Source: Bryobacterales bacterium
Lineage (GTDB): Bacteria > Acidobacteriota > Terriglobia > Bryobacterales > Bryobacteraceae
Length of the DNA: 8,200 bases
NCBI GenBank assembly: GCA_003132865.1
Contig: PKYZ01000379.1
Span: forward strand, 5,718 to 13,917
Direction: 5' to 3'
Shown here: piece by piece, positions 1,380-8,078 of the stretch
How positions within the stretch are numbered: the stretch's first letter is position 1
Layout: each line of letters opens with the position of its first letter
Made by a program: the position numbers and the translations under genes
The notes under the pieces: generated by a model
The model's input: the letters and a program-made list of their open reading frames with translations, nothing else
Told to the model about the DNA's origin: nothing
The model's database searches: none

Positions 1380-1440
1380 TCATGAGCCGGGAGTTGTCGC
1401 CTTCGCCTCTTGGCGCAGTGCGGCGATCCGGTTCTGCAGC
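1341..1440. repeat. inverted repeat straddling the stop codon of the regulator gene
   Basis: The left arm (1341-1371) is an inverted, slightly diverged copy of the right arm (1406-1440), which encodes the recognition-helix end of the regulator. Shared exact blocks in order are GATCCGGTTCTGC (13), GGCGCAGT (8) and CCTC (4), separated by short unequal gaps. The regulator mRNA could fold these into a long hairpin of about 25 pairs that encloses the TGA at 1380-1382. There is no T-run after it, so it is not a classical intrinsic terminator. It could protect the 3' end, cause pausing, or be the scar of an inverted duplication. Confidence 0.75.
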
Positions 1441-2786
1441 GTCCGCAAGCTGATCCCCAACATCTCGGCGGCCAGTTTGCGATTGCCGCGCACGTGCTCG
1501 AGGGTGAGTTTGATGTAAGCCTCTTCGAGTTTCATGAGTGGCTGGCCAGGCTGGAGCATTATATGACCGTCATGGCCGGTTGACGGCCGGGTATACGGGC
1601 CGGGGCTTACACCGAACGTAGGGGAAGGCAGGTCCGTCAGGCGGATCAAACCTTCGCCTGCCAGGATGATGGCTCGCTCCAGAATATTGCGCAGCTCCCG
1701 CACATTGCCAGGCCAATCGTACCGATAAAAAACATCCAGCACCTCCGCATCGAGTCCTGTAATGCGCGTGCCGTGTTTCTTGTTCAGATTCTGCAGCATG
1801 ACATCGGCGATCGGCGCGATATCTTCCTTATGTTCACGCAGCGGCGGAACTACGATCTGGAATACACTCAACCGATAGTAAAGTTCTTCGCGCAAATGCG
1901 TTCCGAGTTCCTGACTGGTCGCGGCAAGTACCCGAGCGTCTACTGCGATTTCATGCTTACCGCCAAGTCGCCGCACCCGCAAGTCCTCGAGAACGCGCAG
2001 CAGCTTTGGTTGCGTGGACTGCGGCATCTCGCCGATCTCGTCGAGAAACAGAGTGCCTCCGTGAGCCTGCTCAAAGCAACCGGCGGAACGCTCCATGGCT
2101 CCCGTAAACGCACCTTTCTCGTGGCCGAACAACTCGCTCTCAACCAGAGCCTCGGGTAAGGCGGCTGCATTGATAGCGACGAAAGGCCCATCACCGCGGG
2201 AGCTGCACTTATGGATCTCCCGCGCAACCAACTCCTTTCCAGTGCCACTCTCTCCACGGATCAATACGGGCGCTGAAGTGGGCGCCACCTGCCTGATTAA
2301 CGAAAAGATCTGCTGCATCGCCGGGGAGGTTCCTACCAAGTCCCCGAGTACGCCGCGAAGGCTGAGGTCCCGCTTAAGTTCGTCGGTTTTCTGCAGGCTT
2401 CTCTTGTAGCGAATCGCGCGTTCCAGAAGGGTCTTGAAGGTGCGCGGTTCCACGGGCTTCTCCAGGTACCAGAACGCCTTGAGGTCGTGAACGGCGGACA
2501 GCGCCTTGTCCATGCTGCCGAATCCGGTAAGCGCAATTGCCGGAGTGAGGTCGCCGCGTTCCTTCAAATACCGGAGCAGTTCAAAGCCGTCCATGCGCGG
2601 CATAACCAAATCCGCAACGATGACGTCCGCGTTGAAGGCAGTGAGCCGTTCCAGCGCTTCCTGCCCGTCGCCCGCGACCTGCGTTTCAAAGTCACAATCG
2701 GAAAGCATGGCAGCCAAGGCGGTACGCTGGCGCTCGTCGTCGTCGACGATGAGTATCCGGCCCGAAACGGCGGGCAGTCGGGGCAT
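1380..2786 (-). CDS. NtrC-type sigma-54 dependent response regulator, 468 aa
   Basis: Cytoplasmic two-component regulator and enhancer-binding ATPase. Residues 10-125 form a receiver domain: acidic pocket D15-D17, phospho-acceptor D59 (in ADLVMP), conserved T87 and K110 before P111. Residues about 145-380 form the sigma-54 interaction AAA+ domain: Walker A GESGTGKE 178-185, the sigma-contacting GAFTGA loop 225-230, Walker B LFLDE 246-250, arginine fingers R299 and R305, and sensor II in [10 protein letters not shown] 358-367. Residues about 420-458 form a Fis-type HTH. All key residues are present, so it should be active. One oddity is that the stretch between sensor I (AT 289-290) and the arginine fingers is about five residues shorter than in NtrC. 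It follows the STAS gene with an 11-base gap; AGAAGG before the ATG serves as ribosome site. No sensor kinase lies in the window. The exact family member (AtoC, ZraR or NtrC-like) cannot be fixed from sequence alone. Confidence 0.96.
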
Positions 2787-2797
2787 CGCCTTCTATT

Positions 2798-3238
2798 CTA
2801 GCAGGTCTCGGCGGAACGGACGCCCAACTCCGAATTGCGATCGTCTTTGTGCTGAATGAAGTTGAGGATGTCGAAGGGCTTCACGGCTCGATCCGGGAAG
2901 AAGCTGTTCACCGCCTCCTGCTCATTATCGAAGAACTCAAAGGCGATGGCCAGCTTGGTCAACGAAAACAACTCCAGATGCGACCGGTTGAGGTTTACCA
3001 GCGCCAGCTTTCCACCGGCCTTGCGCAGTCTGGCGAGCCCAAACACCAACGTCCCCAGCCCAGTGCTGTCAATGTGGCTGACATCTTTGAGATTTAAAAC
3101 CATATTGACCTTGCCGGATTGATGCAGGGCATGCAGTGTGTCGCGCAGATCCAAATCTCCATGCCCCAAAGTGAGCGGGCCTTTCAGGTCAAGAATGACG
3201 ATGCCTTCGCTTTCCCGCTGTTCGATGTGCAGACTCAT
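2798..3238 (-). CDS. STAS-domain anti-anti-sigma-factor type protein, 146 aa
   Basis: A single STAS domain fills residues 1-115. The hallmark loop HIDSTGLGTL puts a phosphorylatable Ser at S58 (T59 next to it), the position used in SpoIIAA. SpoIIAA-like proteins bind an anti-sigma or switch kinase when unphosphorylated and are released after Ser phosphorylation. No such kinase or phosphatase is in the window, so the partner is unknown. About 30 residues after the domain are polar and look unstructured. The start at 3238 is chosen over the in-frame ATG at 3271 because a perfect AGGAGG lies six bases upstream, and because the STAS fold begins at once (LHIEQRESEGIVILDLKG). It is the first gene of an operon with the sigma-54 activator, which points to a joint regulatory job. 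A sigma-54 type promoter lies 57 bases upstream. Confidence 0.93.
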   Translation of the reverse strand: MSLHIEQRESEGIVILDLKGPLTLGHGDLDLRDTLHALHQSGKVNMVLNLKDVSHIDSTGLGTLVFGLARLRKAGGKLALVNLNRSHLELFSLTKLAIAFEFFDNEQEAVNSFFPDRAVKPFDILNFIQHKDDRNSELGVRSAETC

Positions 3239-3244
3239 GCTCAA

Positions 3245-3250
3245 CCTCCT
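3245..3250 (-). promoter_or_regulatory. ribosome binding site deciding the STAS start
   Basis: AGGAGG on the minus strand, six bases before ATG 3238. It is the strongest Shine-Dalgarno in the window and excludes the longer frame starting at 3271. Confidence 0.9.
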
Positions 3251-3271
3251 CTGGCACAGATCAGCGGCCAA

Positions 3272-3679
3272 TCATGGCTTTCGGCGGCGCCGTATGCACT
3301 GCCCACGCCAAGTCGACAGTGTCTCACCGCCGCGGTCCGTGCGCGTTTGGTCTGTACGCCCACCAGGCAGGCCAAGGCCCGGCAACCCGCCGCCCGGTTT
3401 CCGCCGCGCGATCTCGTCAAGCGGAATCCGCCTCACCGATTCGTCGATCGCATGAGTCCGTACCTCGACCTCGCCCAGCAGACCTCGCTTCCGCACATCC
3501 TCCGTCAACCCGTGCAGACACGCGAAGCTATTGCTCGCCCCCCTCTGTTGAATTGTCCACGCCCGGAAGCGTTGCTCGCGCCCGCCTACCGCGGCGTCCG
3601 GATAAGCAGTGTTCCACGTTCTGAGCTCCCGGCGAACTGCACTGCAGCATTGAGTAAACCTAAAACTGATTACGCGCCC
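3272..3679 (-). pseudogene. start-less open frame, possible degraded gene
   Basis: An open frame of 136 codons runs from just after an in-frame stop (3680-3682) to TGA at 3272-3274, with no ATG or GTG before a TTG at 3508. Its first 95 codons read like protein (for example TEDVRKRGLLGEVEVR and DESVRRIPLDEIARR), with GC-rich third positions and little repetition. The last 40 codons turn into Gly, Pro and Arg-rich sequence that looks out of frame, and the tail overlaps the STAS promoter. I do not recognise the family. It may be a remnant of a gene with lost start and a frameshift, or a chance open frame in GC-rich DNA. The plus-strand frame over the same DNA looks like a shadow. Confidence 0.3.
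3295..3310 (-). promoter_or_regulatory. sigma-54 type (-24/-12) promoter of the STAS/regulator operon
   Basis: TGGCGTGGGCAGTGCA has the invariant GG-N10-GC spacing and matches the consensus TGGCACG-N4-TTGCA at nine of twelve defined bases. The predicted start point is near 3284, giving a leader of about 46 bases that contains the AGGAGG. The operon encodes a sigma-54 activator, so this would be autoregulation. Found by eye; no start-site data. Confidence 0.5.
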
Positions 3680-3703
3680 CTAAATTCCGGCCGCCTTGCA
3701 GGA

Positions 3704-3721
3704 CCGGATGTACGTATCCGG
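3704..3721 (-). terminator. hairpin after the lmo0937-like gene
   Basis: CCGGAT and ATCCGG form a perfect 6-bp stem around a 6-base loop, 12 bases past the stop of the small membrane gene. No T-run follows in either direction, so it is only a possible transcript end or stabilising hairpin. Confidence 0.35.
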
Positions 3722-3733
3722 CCACGATCGGCG

Positions 3734-3886
3734 CTAACCAAGAACCCTGCGCCCCTGAATCAGGCGGATTACCATTACTACCAACGCAATGACCAACAGG
3801 ATGTGAATCAGCCCGCCGGCGGTGTATGAGGTTGCCAATCCCGCAGCCCACAAAACCAGCAAAATTATACAGATTGTCCAAAGCAT
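3734..3886 (-). CDS. lmo0937-family small membrane protein, 50 aa
   Basis: The 50-residue product begins MLWTICIILLVLWAAG and has two hydrophobic helices (about 3-18 and 24-43) split by a short TSYTAGG turn, then a basic end (RLIQGRRVLG). This start-turn-second-helix architecture is typical of lmo0937-type (DUF5670-like) proteins, which are common, tiny and of unknown function, often near stress genes. GAGGAG lies seven bases before the ATG. A sigma-54 type promoter ends almost at the ribosome site, so the leader would be about 16 bases. It is divergent from mgtA and shares its control region. The long plus-strand frame that starts inside it (3822) is an antisense shadow. Confidence 0.88.
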   Translation of the reverse strand: MLWTICIILLVLWAAGLATSYTAGGLIHILLVIALVVMVIRLIQGRRVLG

Positions 3887-3912
3887 CTTTTTGCTCCTCG
3901 CCCATGCATCAC

Positions 3913-3928
3913 TGCAAGAGCGGGTCCA
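3913..3928 (-). promoter_or_regulatory. sigma-54 type promoter of the lmo0937-like gene
   Basis: TGGACCCGCTCTTGCA has GG-N10-GC and a perfect TTGCA -12 box. The -24 box TGGACC differs from TGGCAC at two bases. The predicted start point near 3902 leaves a leader of about 16 bases that carries the GAGGAG ribosome site, a very natural layout. Confidence 0.6.
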
Positions 3929-4000
3929 AAGCGGCGGGCCGAGCTACATGGGGACTGCGTGCCAGCCGGCGCTGCCGGACCGGGAGTGCCACTGGCGCAG

Positions 4001-4017
4001 GGTGCAGAATCTGCACC
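4001..4017. promoter_or_regulatory. perfect 8-1-8 dyad, likely activator (enhancer) site
   Basis: GGTGCAGAATCTGCACC is a perfect inverted repeat with a single central base. Its centre, 4009, is 107 bp upstream of the predicted lmo0937 start point (3902) and 108 bp upstream of the predicted mgtA start point (4117). That matches the usual -100 to -150 placement of NtrC-family enhancers, and Fis-type HTH dimers bind such dyads. The nearby regulator (1380-2786) is the obvious candidate ligand, which is an inference. Confidence 0.6.
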
Positions 4018-4090
4018 TGATCCCGGCAGTTGCTGCAGGTCGACTGGCGGCAGCGGCAAGCTGTCCGGTATCGTCTGATATGCAGGCACT

Positions 4091-4106
4091 TGGCACTAGC
4101 CGTGCA
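4091..4106 (+). promoter_or_regulatory. sigma-54 type promoter of mgtA
   Basis: TGGCACTAGCCGTGCA carries a perfect TGGCAC -24 box, GG-N10-GC spacing and a TGCA -12 core; only two of twelve consensus bases differ. The predicted start point is near 4117, giving a leader of about 71 bases to the proposed start. If used, it rules out the in-frame ATGs at 3822 and 4080 as starts for this transcript. Confidence 0.62.
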
Positions 4107-4126
4107 ACCAAGCCCCAGGTCGTCCA

Positions 4127-4147
4127 ACACCCTTGCGCGCGGGGTGT
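4127..4147 (+). other. mgtA leader hairpin with a competing stem
   Basis: ACACCC (4127-4132) pairs with GGGTGT (4142-4147) around a 9-base loop. TGTC at 4145-4148 can instead pair with GACA at 4156-4159, so the two stems exclude each other. No T-run or ORF is seen in the leader, and it does not resemble a known magnesium riboswitch that I can recall. Weak evidence for leader control. Confidence 0.25.
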
Positions 4148-4174
4148 CAGGCCCAGACAGCACGCAGGATCCAC

Positions 4175-4181
4175 GGAGAGG
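4175..4181 (+). promoter_or_regulatory. ribosome binding site before the CTG start of mgtA
   Basis: GGAGAGG lies six bases before CTG 4188 at ideal spacing, and is the only good Shine-Dalgarno in frame range of the ATPase N-terminus. The ATG at 4227 has only GGGAT directly abutting it. Confidence 0.55.
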
Positions 4182-4187
4182 CTGCCA

Positions 4188-6731
4188 CTGAGCAAACCAG
4201 ACAAAACGCTGGACCGCTTCTGGGATATGCCCCTGCGGGACCTACTCAAGCTGCTCGAAGCAGCTCCAGCCGGACTGACTTCCGCCGAGGCGAAACAGCG
4301 ACTGCGTCTCCATGGACCGAACAGTCTGGTAGGAGAGTCTCGCTTCGCGCCTCTGATCGCTTTTCTGCGTTTTTTTGCCAATCCTCTTGTTCTGATTCTC
4401 CTGGCTGCCAGCGCCATCTCGATTGTGTTGGGTGATCCGGTCGGCGGCTCGATCATCATCGCTATTGTCCTGCTCAGCGTGATAGTGAACTTCTACACGG
4501 AGTTTCAGGCGCGGCATGCGGTGGAGGATATTCGGAAGCAGGTTGCTACAACTGCCGCGGTTTTGCGCGACGGACACGAAGCGGAGTTGCCGACCGCAGA
4601 GCTGGTCCCGGGGGATATCGTGCGGCTCAATTGCGGTGACTTGGCGCCAGCCGATGCCCGTTTATTGGACGCCAAGGACCTGCATGTGCGCGAATCCGCG
4701 CTCACGGGGGAGTCTTTGCCCGTGGACAAGGCGGCGGCTGATCTTCCAGAGGGGCAACATGGCATTGGCGATGCCAGCAACAGCGTTTTCCTGGGGACTG
4801 CCGTGCAGACGGGAATGGGCACTGCAGTCATCGTTCGCACAGGCAAAGACACCGCCTTCGGCGAGATCGCCCAACGGCTGTCCACGCGGCCGCCGGAGAC
4901 CGAATTCGGCCGCGGCATACGCCACTTCGGGGTGATGATCACGCGAGTGATCATGCTGCTGGTGCTCTTCGTCCTGCTGGTGAACATCGTCTTACACCGT
5001 CCGGTGCTGGAATCGTTTTTGTTCTCTATCGCCCTGGCCGTCGGGATGACGCCCGAGATGATGCCGATGATCATCACGATCACGCTGGCGCAGGGCGCGC
5101 GGCGGATGGCCAAGAAGAAGGTTCTGGTCAAGCAGCTTTCGGCGATCGAGGACTTCGGCAGCGTGGAGATTCTTTGCAGCGACAAAACCGGAACCCTGAC
5201 CGAAGGCGAGATCGTGCTGGACAAGCACGTGGACATTTACGGTCAGGACAGCGAAGACGTCCTCCGGTTCGTCTACCTGAACAGTTACTTTCAAGCCGGC
5301 ATCAAGAGCCCGCTGGACGACGCCATCCTGAAGTATCAGCGTCCTGCCATAGCGGAGTATGAGAAGGTGGACGAGATCCCCTTCGACTTCAATCGCAAGC
5401 GCCTATCCGTGGTGGTGCGGCGTGGCGGCGAGCACCTCCTCATTACCAAGGGCGAGGCGGAAAGCGTCTTTGCCATCTGCGGGACCGTCATGATTGACGG
5501 AGCGTCCCAACCGTTCGACGAAGGCCGGCGAGCCCAGGCGGCGGAGACCTTCAAGAAGTTGAGTGCCGACGGATTCCGCACCCTGGGAGTCGCAGTCCGG
5601 AAGGTGGACCAGCAGGGTGCTTATGCGCTCGCTGCCGAGCAGGAGATGACGCTGGCCGGGTTTGCGGCATTCCTCGACCCGCCCAAGGAGGGAATTCTTG
5701 CGGTTCTCGAAGCGCTGAAAAAGAACGGCGTTTCCGTGCTCATCATGACCGGCGACAATCAGTACGTGACGCAGAAGGTAGCGCACGATGTCGGGTTGGC
5801 TACCGACCGCATTGTCACCGGCAACCAGGTGGACACGATGGACGACGCCGCCCTGGCTTACCAGGCGGAGCATGGCGCCATCTTCGCGCGTGTGTCTCCG
5901 GAACAAAAGAACCGGGTGATCCTCGGTCTGAAGGCACGCGGGCACGTCGTGGGGTACATCGGTGACGGCATCAACGATGCTCCGTCACTGCACACCGCGG
6001 ACGTCGGCATTTCCGTAATGAATGGCGTGGATGTGGCCAAAGATGCCGCGAAAATCATCCTGCTGGAAAAGGACCTGGCAGTCCTGAACGAGGGGGTAAT
6101 CGAGGGACGGCGGTGCTTCGCCAACATCATGAAGTACATCATCATGAGCACCAGCTCAAACTTCGGCAATATGTTCAGCATGGCTGCGGCATCGCTTTTC
6201 CTGCCATTCCTTCCAATGTTGCCGACTCAAATCCTGCTGAACAATTTTCTTTATGACACTTCACAGGTCGCTGTCCCCGGCGATAACGTCGATCCGGCCC
6301 TGGTGCACAAGCCCAAGCGGTGGCAAATTGGGTTCATTCGCCAGTTTATGACGATCATCGGCCCCATCAGCTCCATCTACGATTTCCTCACTTTCGGAGT
6401 CCTCCTCTGGCTGTTCCACGCTTCCACCAACGCGCCGCTGTTCCGGACCGGGTGGTTCGTGGAATCCCTGGTTACGCAGACGCTGGTAGTGTTTGTGATC
6501 CGGACGGCCGGCAACCCTTTCAAGAGCCGGCCGAGCGGGCGGTTGCTGATTGCGGTTGCGGCCGTCTCCGTGGCCGGCGCCGTCCTGCCGTATACGCGCC
6601 TGGGCGCTGTACTTGGGTTCATTCCATTACCGCTGTCGTTACTGGGTGCGATTTCGCTACTGACCCTGACCTATCTTTTCCTGGTGCAAGCCGTCAAGAC
6701 CTGGTTCTATCGCCGGCATGCGTTGCTCTGA
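4188..6731 (+). CDS. mgtA: magnesium-transporting P-type ATPase (MgtA/MgtB type), about 847 aa
   Basis: Inner-membrane P-type ATPase that drives Mg2+ import at the cost of ATP. Numbered from CTG 4188: an N-terminal cation-ATPase domain (about 10-60), M1-M2 (about 61-103), actuator loop with TGES 173-176, M3-M4 (about 248-300) with the MgtA-type TPEMMPM at 288-294, phosphorylation motif DKTGT with D332, nucleotide domain with KGE at 421-423 (usually KGA), TGDN 521-524, hinge GDGINDAP 592-599, then six C-terminal helices. The block FLPFLPMLPTQILLNNFLYD and the following DTSQVAVPGDNVD are diagnostic of the type IIIB magnesium group. All catalytic residues are intact. Length is close to the family norm (E. 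coli MgtA about 898). Starts: 3822 is antisense to the lmo0937 gene, 4080 lies before the predicted promoter start; CTG 4188 has the only good ribosome site, ATG 4227 is the fallback. Confidence 0.95.
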   Translation: MSKPDKTLDRFWDMPLRDLLKLLEAAPAGLTSAEAKQRLRLHGPNSLVGESRFAPLIAFLRFFANPLVLILLAASAISIVLGDPVGGSIIIAIVLLSVIVNFYTEFQARHAVEDIRKQVATTAAVLRDGHEAELPTAELVPGDIVRLNCGDLAPADARLLDAKDLHVRESALTGESLPVDKAAADLPEGQHGIGDASNSVFLGTAVQTGMGTAVIVRTGKDTAFGEIAQRLSTRPPETEFGRGIRHFGVMITRVIMLLVLFVLLVNIVLHRPVLESFLFSIALAVGMTPEMMPMIITITLAQGARRMAKKKVLVKQLSAIEDFGSVEILCSDKTGTLTEGEIVLDKHVDIYGQDSEDVLRFVYLNSYFQAGIKSPLDDAILKYQRPAIAEYEKVDEIPFDFNRKRLSVVVRRGGEHLLITKGEAESVFAICGTVMIDGASQPFDEGRRAQAAETFKKLSADGFRTLGVAVRKVDQQGAYALAAEQEMTLAGFAAFLDPPKEGILAVLEALKKNGVSVLIMTGDNQYVTQKVAHDVGLATDRIVTGNQVDTMDDAALAYQAEHGAIFARVSPEQKNRVILGLKARGHVVGYIGDGINDAPSLHTADVGISVMNGVDVAKDAAKIILLEKDLAVLNEGVIEGRRCFANIMKYIIMSTSSNFGNMFSMAAASLFLPFLPMLPTQILLNNFLYDTSQVAVPGDNVDPALVHKPKRWQIGFIRQFMTIIGPISSIYDFLTFGVLLWLFHASTNAPLFRTGWFVESLVTQTLVVFVIRTAGNPFKSRPSGRLLIAVAAVSVAGAVLPYTRLGAVLGFIPLPLSLLGAISLLTLTYLFLVQAVKTWFYRRHALL

Positions 6732-7511: not shown

Positions 7512-7901
7512 ATGAATCTAACAGATACGGCAACTAGAGCGGGCGCAACTCTGTCTCGCGCCCAGGAGCGAGTGAAGGATTTTGGCCTCGCCGCCGCTGA
7601 GAAGTTGGATGAAGCCCGAGAGGGAACAGCCGACGCGCTCGAAAACGCGGCTTGCTCGGTTCGAACCACCGGACGCGCGGGGGCCAAGACGATAGAGACT
7701 ATGTCGGAGAACGCGGCCGGCAACCTGGATTCCACCGCTGCATATATGCGCGATCACGACCTGGGAGGCATGCTCAGTAACCTCCGGCAGGTGATTGTCA
7801 GGAATCCAACCGCGTTCCTGGTTTTGGCCGCTAGCATTGGGTTCCTGGCCGGTTCCGCGTTTCGGCGAAACAATTCACAGGCCGGGCCGTACCCGGCCTA
7901 G
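7512..7901 (+). CDS. YqjD/ElaB/DUF883-like membrane-anchored helical protein, 129 aa
   Basis: Residues 1-90 are a long polar, alanine-rich amphipathic helix region without tryptophan, likely a coiled coil. Residues about 93-118 (VIVRNPTAFLVLAASIGFLAGSAFRR) are one membrane helix with a small-residue zipper, closed by RR and a short polar tail. The RNP-helix-GFLAG-RR ending is the signature layout of DUF883/YqjD proteins, which sit in the inner membrane by a C-terminal anchor; E. coli YqjD binds ribosomes in stationary phase. Sequence identity to that family is low here, so function is by architecture only. The start at 7512 has GGAGG five bases upstream; the in-frame extension back to 7353 is not protein-like. 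It lies 24 bases ahead of another small membrane gene, so the two are probably one operon. Confidence 0.82.
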   Translation: MNLTDTATRAGATLSRAQERVKDFGLAAAEKLDEAREGTADALENAACSVRTTGRAGAKTIETMSENAAGNLDSTAAYMRDHDLGGMLSNLRQVIVRNPTAFLVLAASIGFLAGSAFRRNNSQAGPYPA

Positions 7902-7925: not shown

Positions 7926-8078
7926 ATGCTGATACTGATTATCATTTTGGTACTGCTCTTTGGCGCCGGTGGAGGATATTACGGCCATAGCCGCTGGGGT
8001 CCCGGTGGCGGGGCTGGTATAGGACTGGGGACGGTTCTAATAATTCTCCTCATCGCCTACATGCTTGGCCTGCTCTGA
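7926..8078 (+). CDS. DUF3309-like small glycine-rich membrane protein, 50 aa
   Basis: Two hydrophobic helices (about 2-12 and 32-50) flank a glycine-rich hydrophilic loop with GAGGGYYGHSRWGPGGG at about residues 13-29. This is the layout of DUF3309-type proteins, which are tiny, widespread and uncharacterised. AAGGAG lies six bases before the ATG, and the gene follows the DUF883-like gene with a 24-base gap, so co-transcription is likely. The end at TGA 8076-8078 leaves no extra tail. It is a natural partner of the other stress-type membrane proteins here; the role itself is unknown. Confidence 0.87.
   Translation: MLILIIILVLLFGAGGGYYGHSRWGPGGGAGIGLGTVLIILLIAYMLGLL

Follow-up and report, generated by a model that had tools for sequence, protein, structure and literature searches.

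A candidate two-site enhancer between opposed sigma-54-type promoters of a DUF5670 gene and mgtA in Bryobacterales

In a soil acidobacterium, a palindrome lying between an lmo0937-family small membrane protein gene and the divergent magnesium pump gene mgtA probably forms part of a two-site enhancer on which a bacterial enhancer-binding protein (bEBP) acts—likeliest the NtrC-family product of 1380-2786—which would drive lmo0937 and, here, mgtA as well. The window, that is, the full stretch of 8,200 nt analysed, supplied the coordinates (Table 1), and the genome-level evidence was drawn from relatives; the sites described below, with their recurrence and association with the regulator, and the differences among mgtA promoters were established by computation.

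The dyad and the opposed promoters in the window

The window proteins were classified with Pfam and NCBIfam profiles. The 1380-2786 product combines a receiver, a Sigma54_activat domain with GAFTGA, and a Fis HTH, as an NtrC-family activator does, and lies under the curated NCBIfam equivalog cut-offs for AtoC (388.7/714), NtrC (382.5/558.6), and ZraR (320/760). No sensor kinase was found among the eight window proteins scanned. The mgtA codon at 4188 is CTG in the window and in L041, and ATG in 10 of 14 relatives. Positions 7512-7901 (+) encode a 129-aa protein without a family, followed by a small DUF3309 protein at 7926-8078.

Table 1. Features of the intergenic region and neighbouring genes (window coordinates)
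Feature	Position	Strand	Remarks
NtrC-family response regulator	1380-2786	-	Receiver, AAA+ with GAFTGA, Fis-type HTH; proposed dyad binder
STAS-domain protein	2798-3238	-	PF01740; recurs between lmo0937 and regulator in several loci
lmo0937-family small membrane protein, 50 aa	3734-3886	-	PF18919 DUF5670, NF033488
Sigma-54-type promoter TGGACCCGCTCTTGCA, lmo0937 side	3913-3928	-	GG-N10-GC; predicted start ~3902
Primary dyad GGTGCAGAATCTGCACC	4001-4017		Centre 4009; core TGCAGANTCTGCA at 4003-4015; proposed main activator site
Secondary imperfect dyad GGCAGTTGCTGCA	4025-4037		TGCAGCAACTGCC on lmo0937 strand; 9/10 arm positions match
Sigma-54-type promoter TGGCACTAGCCGTGCA, mgtA side	4091-4106	+	GG-N10-GC; predicted start ~4117
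CAGGAT	4165-4170	+	Six relatives lacking a sigma-54 site show TAGAAT or TAAAAT at this place
mgtA, magnesium-translocating P-type ATPase	4188-6731	+	TIGR01524

The primary dyad is perfectly palindromic, its 8-bp arms flanking a single central base, and both candidate promoters agree with the -24/-12 consensus, including GG-N10-GC. Sigma-54 sites were scored with weights that approximate the published consensus and are not those of a published matrix, and the predicted starts were placed 12 nt past the GC of each candidate. The preliminary description had placed the dyad midway between two opposed promoters of this type, at 107 and 108 nt from its centre to the predicted starts; coordinates, motifs, and arithmetic were all confirmed, and the distances to the -24 boxes are 81 and 82 nt on the lmo0937 and mgtA sides, respectively. 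Within 3200-4260, a simple consensus scan gave no sigma-70-like -35/-10 promoter for the gene pair, and no intrinsic terminator was found; the window matched no Rfam family, and the plasmid search gave no match. An extra sigma-54-like site, TGGCGTGGGCAGTGCA (score 10.5), lies ahead of the STAS gene at 3295-3310 (-), and was not seen in relatives at the same place and threshold.

Among 2000 Markov shuffles of 3887-4187, a perfect palindrome (arm of at least 8, spacer of at most 2) appeared in 82, and two or more sigma-54-like sites scoring at least 10.4 appeared in 44; the whole window contains two such palindromes (shuffle mean 0.43) and four such sites. Because the chance of each element, judged on the window by itself, is a few per cent, the arrangement is suggestive when seen in the window alone, and it becomes convincing through its recurrence in relatives.

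Recurrence in relatives and association with the regulator

The family searched was that of the genome containing L001, in which DUF5670 was found in 68 of 150 genomes. The resulting set comprised 112 distinct genes—nearly all from this one family, and including that of the window—of which 110 had 400 nt of upstream sequence. With a dyad called at 11/12 or better, or at 10/12 with TGCA ends, the dyad was detected upstream of 21 of the 110 genes, compared with a mean of 0.5 and a maximum of 2 in shuffles and 0 for the reversed pattern; it is weaker or oddly placed in L136, L165, L186, and L123, and scores 10/12 in L035, L168, and L172. A sigma-54 site scoring at least 9 at -150..-36 on the gene strand precedes 62 of the 110 genes (controls: opposite strand, 6; further upstream, 3; shuffles, 3.2), as against 23 of 255 control ORFs of at least 250 aa. 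Since most of these 62 genes are without the dyad, there are probably DUF5670 genes driven by different activators. The counts overstate independence, because relatives share ancestry.

Alignment of 14 loci on the dyad gave a mean of 1.84 bits per arm column versus 0.89 in the flanks, and the expectation that the dyad and the -24/-12 boxes would be shared with close relatives was borne out by intergenic comparison, in which both recur. The exact midpoint did not survive the same comparison: measured from the dyad centre to TGG, the lmo0937/mgtA distances are 81/82 nt in the window, 117/83 in L001, 59/91 in L002, and 83/145 in L007. An exact midpoint was thus rejected as a functional feature, the spacing not being conserved among relatives. 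Enhancers for bEBPs contain one or more dyad sites roughly 60-150 nt upstream of the promoter; the distances found here are 59-117 nt on the lmo0937 side (16 loci) and 82-145 nt on the mgtA side (6 loci). Twelve of the 16 listed lmo0937-side distances fall at 59-61 or 81-84 nt, with L136 (170), L165 (76), L168 (83), L172 (83), and L186 (102) left out of the list. Helical phasing on this side (R 0.75 at 11 bp, p 0.0002 versus uniform) is only suggestive, being calculated from 16 related, hand-listed distances, and the mgtA-side distances appear out of phase by eye.

A genome-wide dyad search allowing one mismatch was too unspecific for use, and a pattern search matched 33 of 150 genomes, with four matches for the reversed control, the matches being classified in part. 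Some DUF5670 genes without the dyad (L140, L141, L147, L170, L181, L228, and L229) lie near other NtrC-family regulators—within ~9 kb, mostly 3.3 kb—that are 42-53% identical to that of the window. A sigma-54-like site, TGGCAGGGNNAYAGCA, which may be coding sequence, recurs 460-1460 nt upstream of the lmo0937 promoter in L096, L102, L197, L251, and L281.

The alignment of the 14 loci on the primary dyad also exposed a second conserved block. In the window, this block corresponds to the secondary dyad, centred 22 nt from the primary on the mgtA side, and the single dyad of the preliminary description accordingly gives way to a pair, the weaker member of which lies about two helical turns from the stronger. 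Of 25 sites, 13 have a second dyad of at least 8/10 at exactly -21 (maximum of 2 in shuffled flanks, although many of the 25 flanks share descent, which the shuffle ignores), and five more have one at -19, -20, -22, or +21; none of at least 8/10 was found near 19-22 nt in the remaining seven (L002, L007, L097, L098, L109, L172, and L284). Enhancers for bEBPs usually have more than one site, as found here in 18 of the 25, and two sites about two helical turns apart are a usual anatomy for a sigma-54 activator.

The search found 21 orthologues of the regulator sharing at least 75% identity, distributed over 18 of 237 family genomes (E 1e-150); the next matches are 62% identical, with one partial copy (73%, G130) in between. 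At 74% or above, window and partial copies included, there are 24 distinct regulator loci, 17 of which have a DUF5670 gene (broken in L273) in view upstream. The order lmo0937 - STAS - NtrC-family regulator accompanies the dyad in 14 of these 17; the dyad is weaker in L197, and is lacking ahead of DUF5670 in L271 and L196, the latter containing a 10/12 dyad and a sigma-54-like site ~1.3 kb further up. Neither DUF5670 nor dyad was found in the upstream DNA examined of four regulator copies (L266, L267, L270, and L272), and contig ends cut off L241, L268, and L175. GAFTGA is present in 18 of 20 orthologues, with GSFTGA in L001 and L272, and the recognition helix ISLRTLQ in 19 of 20, an ambiguous base interrupting it in L041.

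Furthermore, the genomes with a dyad before DUF5670 coincide with those containing the regulator (13/15 versus 6/135, or 14/17 versus 5/133 when the 10/12 dyads of G044 and G092 are counted). Fisher p is ~1e-12 for either count, kinship not being corrected; the tables were compiled by hand, with the partial regulator copies in G096 and G092 taken as present. A dyad before DUF5670 occurs with no regulator orthologue at the cut-off in G141, G042, and G044 (10/12), all draft genomes. Because the dyad recurs, and goes with lmo0937 - STAS - regulator, 1380-2786 is the best candidate for its binder, and we infer that its product would bind the dyad.

Judging from this sequence comparison, the primary dyad would be the stronger of the two sites that make up an enhancer for a bEBP, likeliest the 1380-2786 product. 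The activated regulator would bind TGCAGANTCTGCA and, 21-22 nt from it, the weaker site TGCAG-N3-CTGCC, and then oligomerise; DNA looping would allow sigma-54 RNA polymerase to be opened at the lmo0937 -24/-12 promoter, the presumed effect being activation and not repression. Transcription would probably continue from lmo0937 through STAS to the regulator, resulting in positive autoregulation. The gap between lmo0937 and STAS is ~7 nt in L001 (tblastn placement) and ~500 nt in the window, and the L001 spacing, together with the kept promoter unit, is consistent with one self-activating operon. In this lineage, the same enhancer would also serve the opposite-facing -24/-12 promoter ahead of mgtA, which seems to have replaced a sigma-70-type promoter.

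The mgtA side and rival explanations

The MgtA scan yielded 49 loci, mostly from Bryobacterales and other Acidobacteriota; 39 relatives with 699 nt and two with less entered the upstream survey, and 19 sequences entered the scan that included odd-centred palindromes. A divergent DUF5670 gene was found within 400 nt of mgtA in six loci (L001, L002, L007, L026, L035, and L041), all of which have the dyad, at 10/12 in L035 and 12/12 in the others. Sigma-54-type sites are present on both sides in L001, L002 (weak, 8.8, on the lmo0937 side), and L007, and also in L036, in which lmo0937 is replaced; in L026, L035, and L041, the dyad adjoins an mgtA without a sigma-54 site. L008 has lost lmo0937 and kept the dyad (11/12), a second dyad, and the mgtA sigma-54 site, and L032 has the mgtA sigma-54 site without the dyad. 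In L003, L004, L005, L006, and L047, the dyad is absent, and no sigma-54 site lying 150 nt or less from mgtA scores above 7. In distant relatives, sigma-54-like sites lie ahead of mgtA in L013, L023, and L040, in which the dyad was not seen, and in L009, for which the dyad scan was blind to odd-centred palindromes.

A sigma-54 site is present at seven mgtA genes with at least 84% identity (window, L001, L002, L007, L008, L032, and L036), and in six of them a dyad lies 82-145 nt upstream. The best -10 match is 3-4 of 6 positions in six of these promoters and 5 in L036. Of eight mgtA genes without a sigma-54 site, six (L003, L004, L005, L026, L035, and L041) have TAGAAT or TAAAAT 24-25 nt before the mgtA start, and L006 and L047 reach a -10 score of 4.5 with the TG bonus. 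The difference between the two classes (Mann-Whitney p 0.002, Fisher p 0.04) comes from a small, related sample. CAGGAT, found at this place in the window, is possibly a degenerated -10 box, and the comparison suggests an exchange of mgtA promoter class, sigma-70-type versus sigma-54-type. The promoter states are scattered on the tree, with four changes for the sigma-54-with-dyad label and 9 of 16 inner branches open; the tree fixes neither direction nor number of changes, and the claim that it demonstrates one origin for the sigma-54 state of mgtA was rejected.

Thus, the proposal of shared control with mgtA holds in part: both promoters and the dyad recur, but the pairing with mgtA is optional, since the dyad and lmo0937 promoter are also found without mgtA in view or, in three loci, beside an mgtA lacking a sigma-54 site. 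The lmo0937 side is the constant partner of the dyad, and the mgtA side varies. Owing to the loose mgtA-side distances, the case for dependence on the dyad is weaker for mgtA than for lmo0937. The enhancer might even belong to lmo0937 (with the STAS-regulator operon) only, the mgtA site being served by another activator or affected incidentally; this is unlikely, though it deserves weight, given the loci without mgtA in view, the clustered lmo0937-side distances, the three loci with a dyad beside a sigma-54-less mgtA, and the reverse case of L032. Against it stand L008, which without lmo0937 still has both dyads and the mgtA sigma-54 site, and the presence of the dyad ahead of six of the seven sigma-54-type mgtA promoters. 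It is rather improbable that the dyad is bound by a different NtrC-family activator of the genome instead of by the neighbour: first-look regulator candidates number 34-224 per listed genome, and G141, G042, and G044 have the dyad with no regulator orthologue found, but exactly this orthologue group is adjacent to and co-occurs with the dyad, and a near-invariant recognition helix goes alongside a near-invariant dyad.

As RNA, the dyad folds well (z -2.68, equalled by 2 of 200 shuffles), which speaks for an RNA hairpin or terminator, or else a repressor operator, unrelated to sigma-54. It is nevertheless very improbable that the dyad is any of these: its place is upstream of the two predicted starts, with no T tract, terminator call, or Rfam family; the variants TGCAAAATCTGCA (L008) and TGCAAAACCTGCA (L035) break the pairing; and the dyad recurs at set places before sigma-54 sites. 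A terminator or riboswitch was rejected by terminator scan, Rfam search, and folding comparison. A chance palindrome between chance sigma-54 look-alikes, for which the few-per-cent figures of the window by itself might speak, is a negligible prospect in view of recurrence and conservation in many loci, and is refuted for the lmo0937 side.

Relation to known systems and significance

The promoter unit also occurs with other genes. In L273, lmo0937 is broken, and the dyad and promoter are kept ahead of a small membrane protein, STAS, and the regulator; in L036/L277, the lmo0937-type promoter now precedes an HlyD-type gene. These arrangements indicate that the unit is kept apart from its first gene. 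A second, divergent sigma-54-type site lies before a peptidoglycan-binding protein gene in L205. The PRC-barrel gene of G005 (L284) is accompanied by the dyad and a sigma-54 site. The DksA/TraR-type gene of G008 (L097) has the dyad and no sigma-54 site above threshold; a truncated gene of G006 (L104), which begins similarly, has both. A broader reading, offered tentatively and as a whole somewhat short of probable, joins these observations: a hitherto undescribed, self-activating sigma-54 envelope-stress system of this acidobacterial family (lmo0937 - STAS - regulator) would recruit genes at its two-site enhancer; mgtA, when it arrived there, would have exchanged a sigma-70-type promoter for a sigma-54-type one; the peptidoglycan-binding protein (L205) and HlyD-type (L277) genes would have been recruited in other lineages; single genes elsewhere (PRC-barrel, DksA/TraR-type) would carry the enhancer site; and the DUF5670 genes of this family would be largely sigma-54-driven.

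The control unit had been thought undescribed, a claim that has to be narrowed, as divergent sigma-54 promoters under one activator have been published. The ORP operons of Desulfovibrio, studied by Fievet in 2011, are reportedly divergent and sigma-54-dependent. ZraR controls divergent zraP and zraSR in Salmonella and E. coli, and the features in common with the proposed unit are one NtrC-family response regulator, two divergent sigma-54 promoters, one of them that of its own genes, and an envelope stress context (PMC4987338); the targets differ, being a periplasmic chaperone and a sensor-regulator pair there, and DUF5670 with STAS-regulator and a magnesium P-type ATPase here. In Desulfovibrio vulgaris, the T3SS and DVUA0100 form divergent sigma-54 operons with a common upstream region and a predicted activator motif for both (PMC4641369), but genes, regulator, and motif are all other than in the window. 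The NtrC box TGCACCAnnnTGGTGCA is likewise described as a TGCA-ended palindrome bound by an NtrC-type activator (PMC8743547); it spans 17 bp (TGC-N11-GCA), whereas the dyad here spans 13-15 bp (TGC-N7-GCA) and thus lacks the NtrC-box spacing. Listeria monocytogenes lmo0937, of the same small membrane protein family and also stress-regulated, appears in gene lists as sigma-B-dependent (PMC7690807, PMC2813243), in contrast to the sigma-54-type promoters here. No description of the lmo0937/mgtA pair or unit was seen in the portions of the literature searched, outside which most subscription journals lie, and a text search of PMC3162934 and PMC12316311 gave nothing on Acidobacteria. The type of switch is already known; new are the group of regulators, the site and the genes that go with it, and the mgtA promoter difference.

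Overall, a concrete site, regulator, and target list are provided for an apparently uncharacterised acidobacterial two-component sigma-54 system, in which a Mg2+ pump would be linked to an envelope-type stress response. Moreover, loci with the dyad beside a sigma-70-type mgtA and loci with the dyad beside a sigma-54-type mgtA form a natural series for the way in which an enhancer already in place may gain control of a gene next to it, and DUF5670, a family of unknown function, is given a testable regulatory context.
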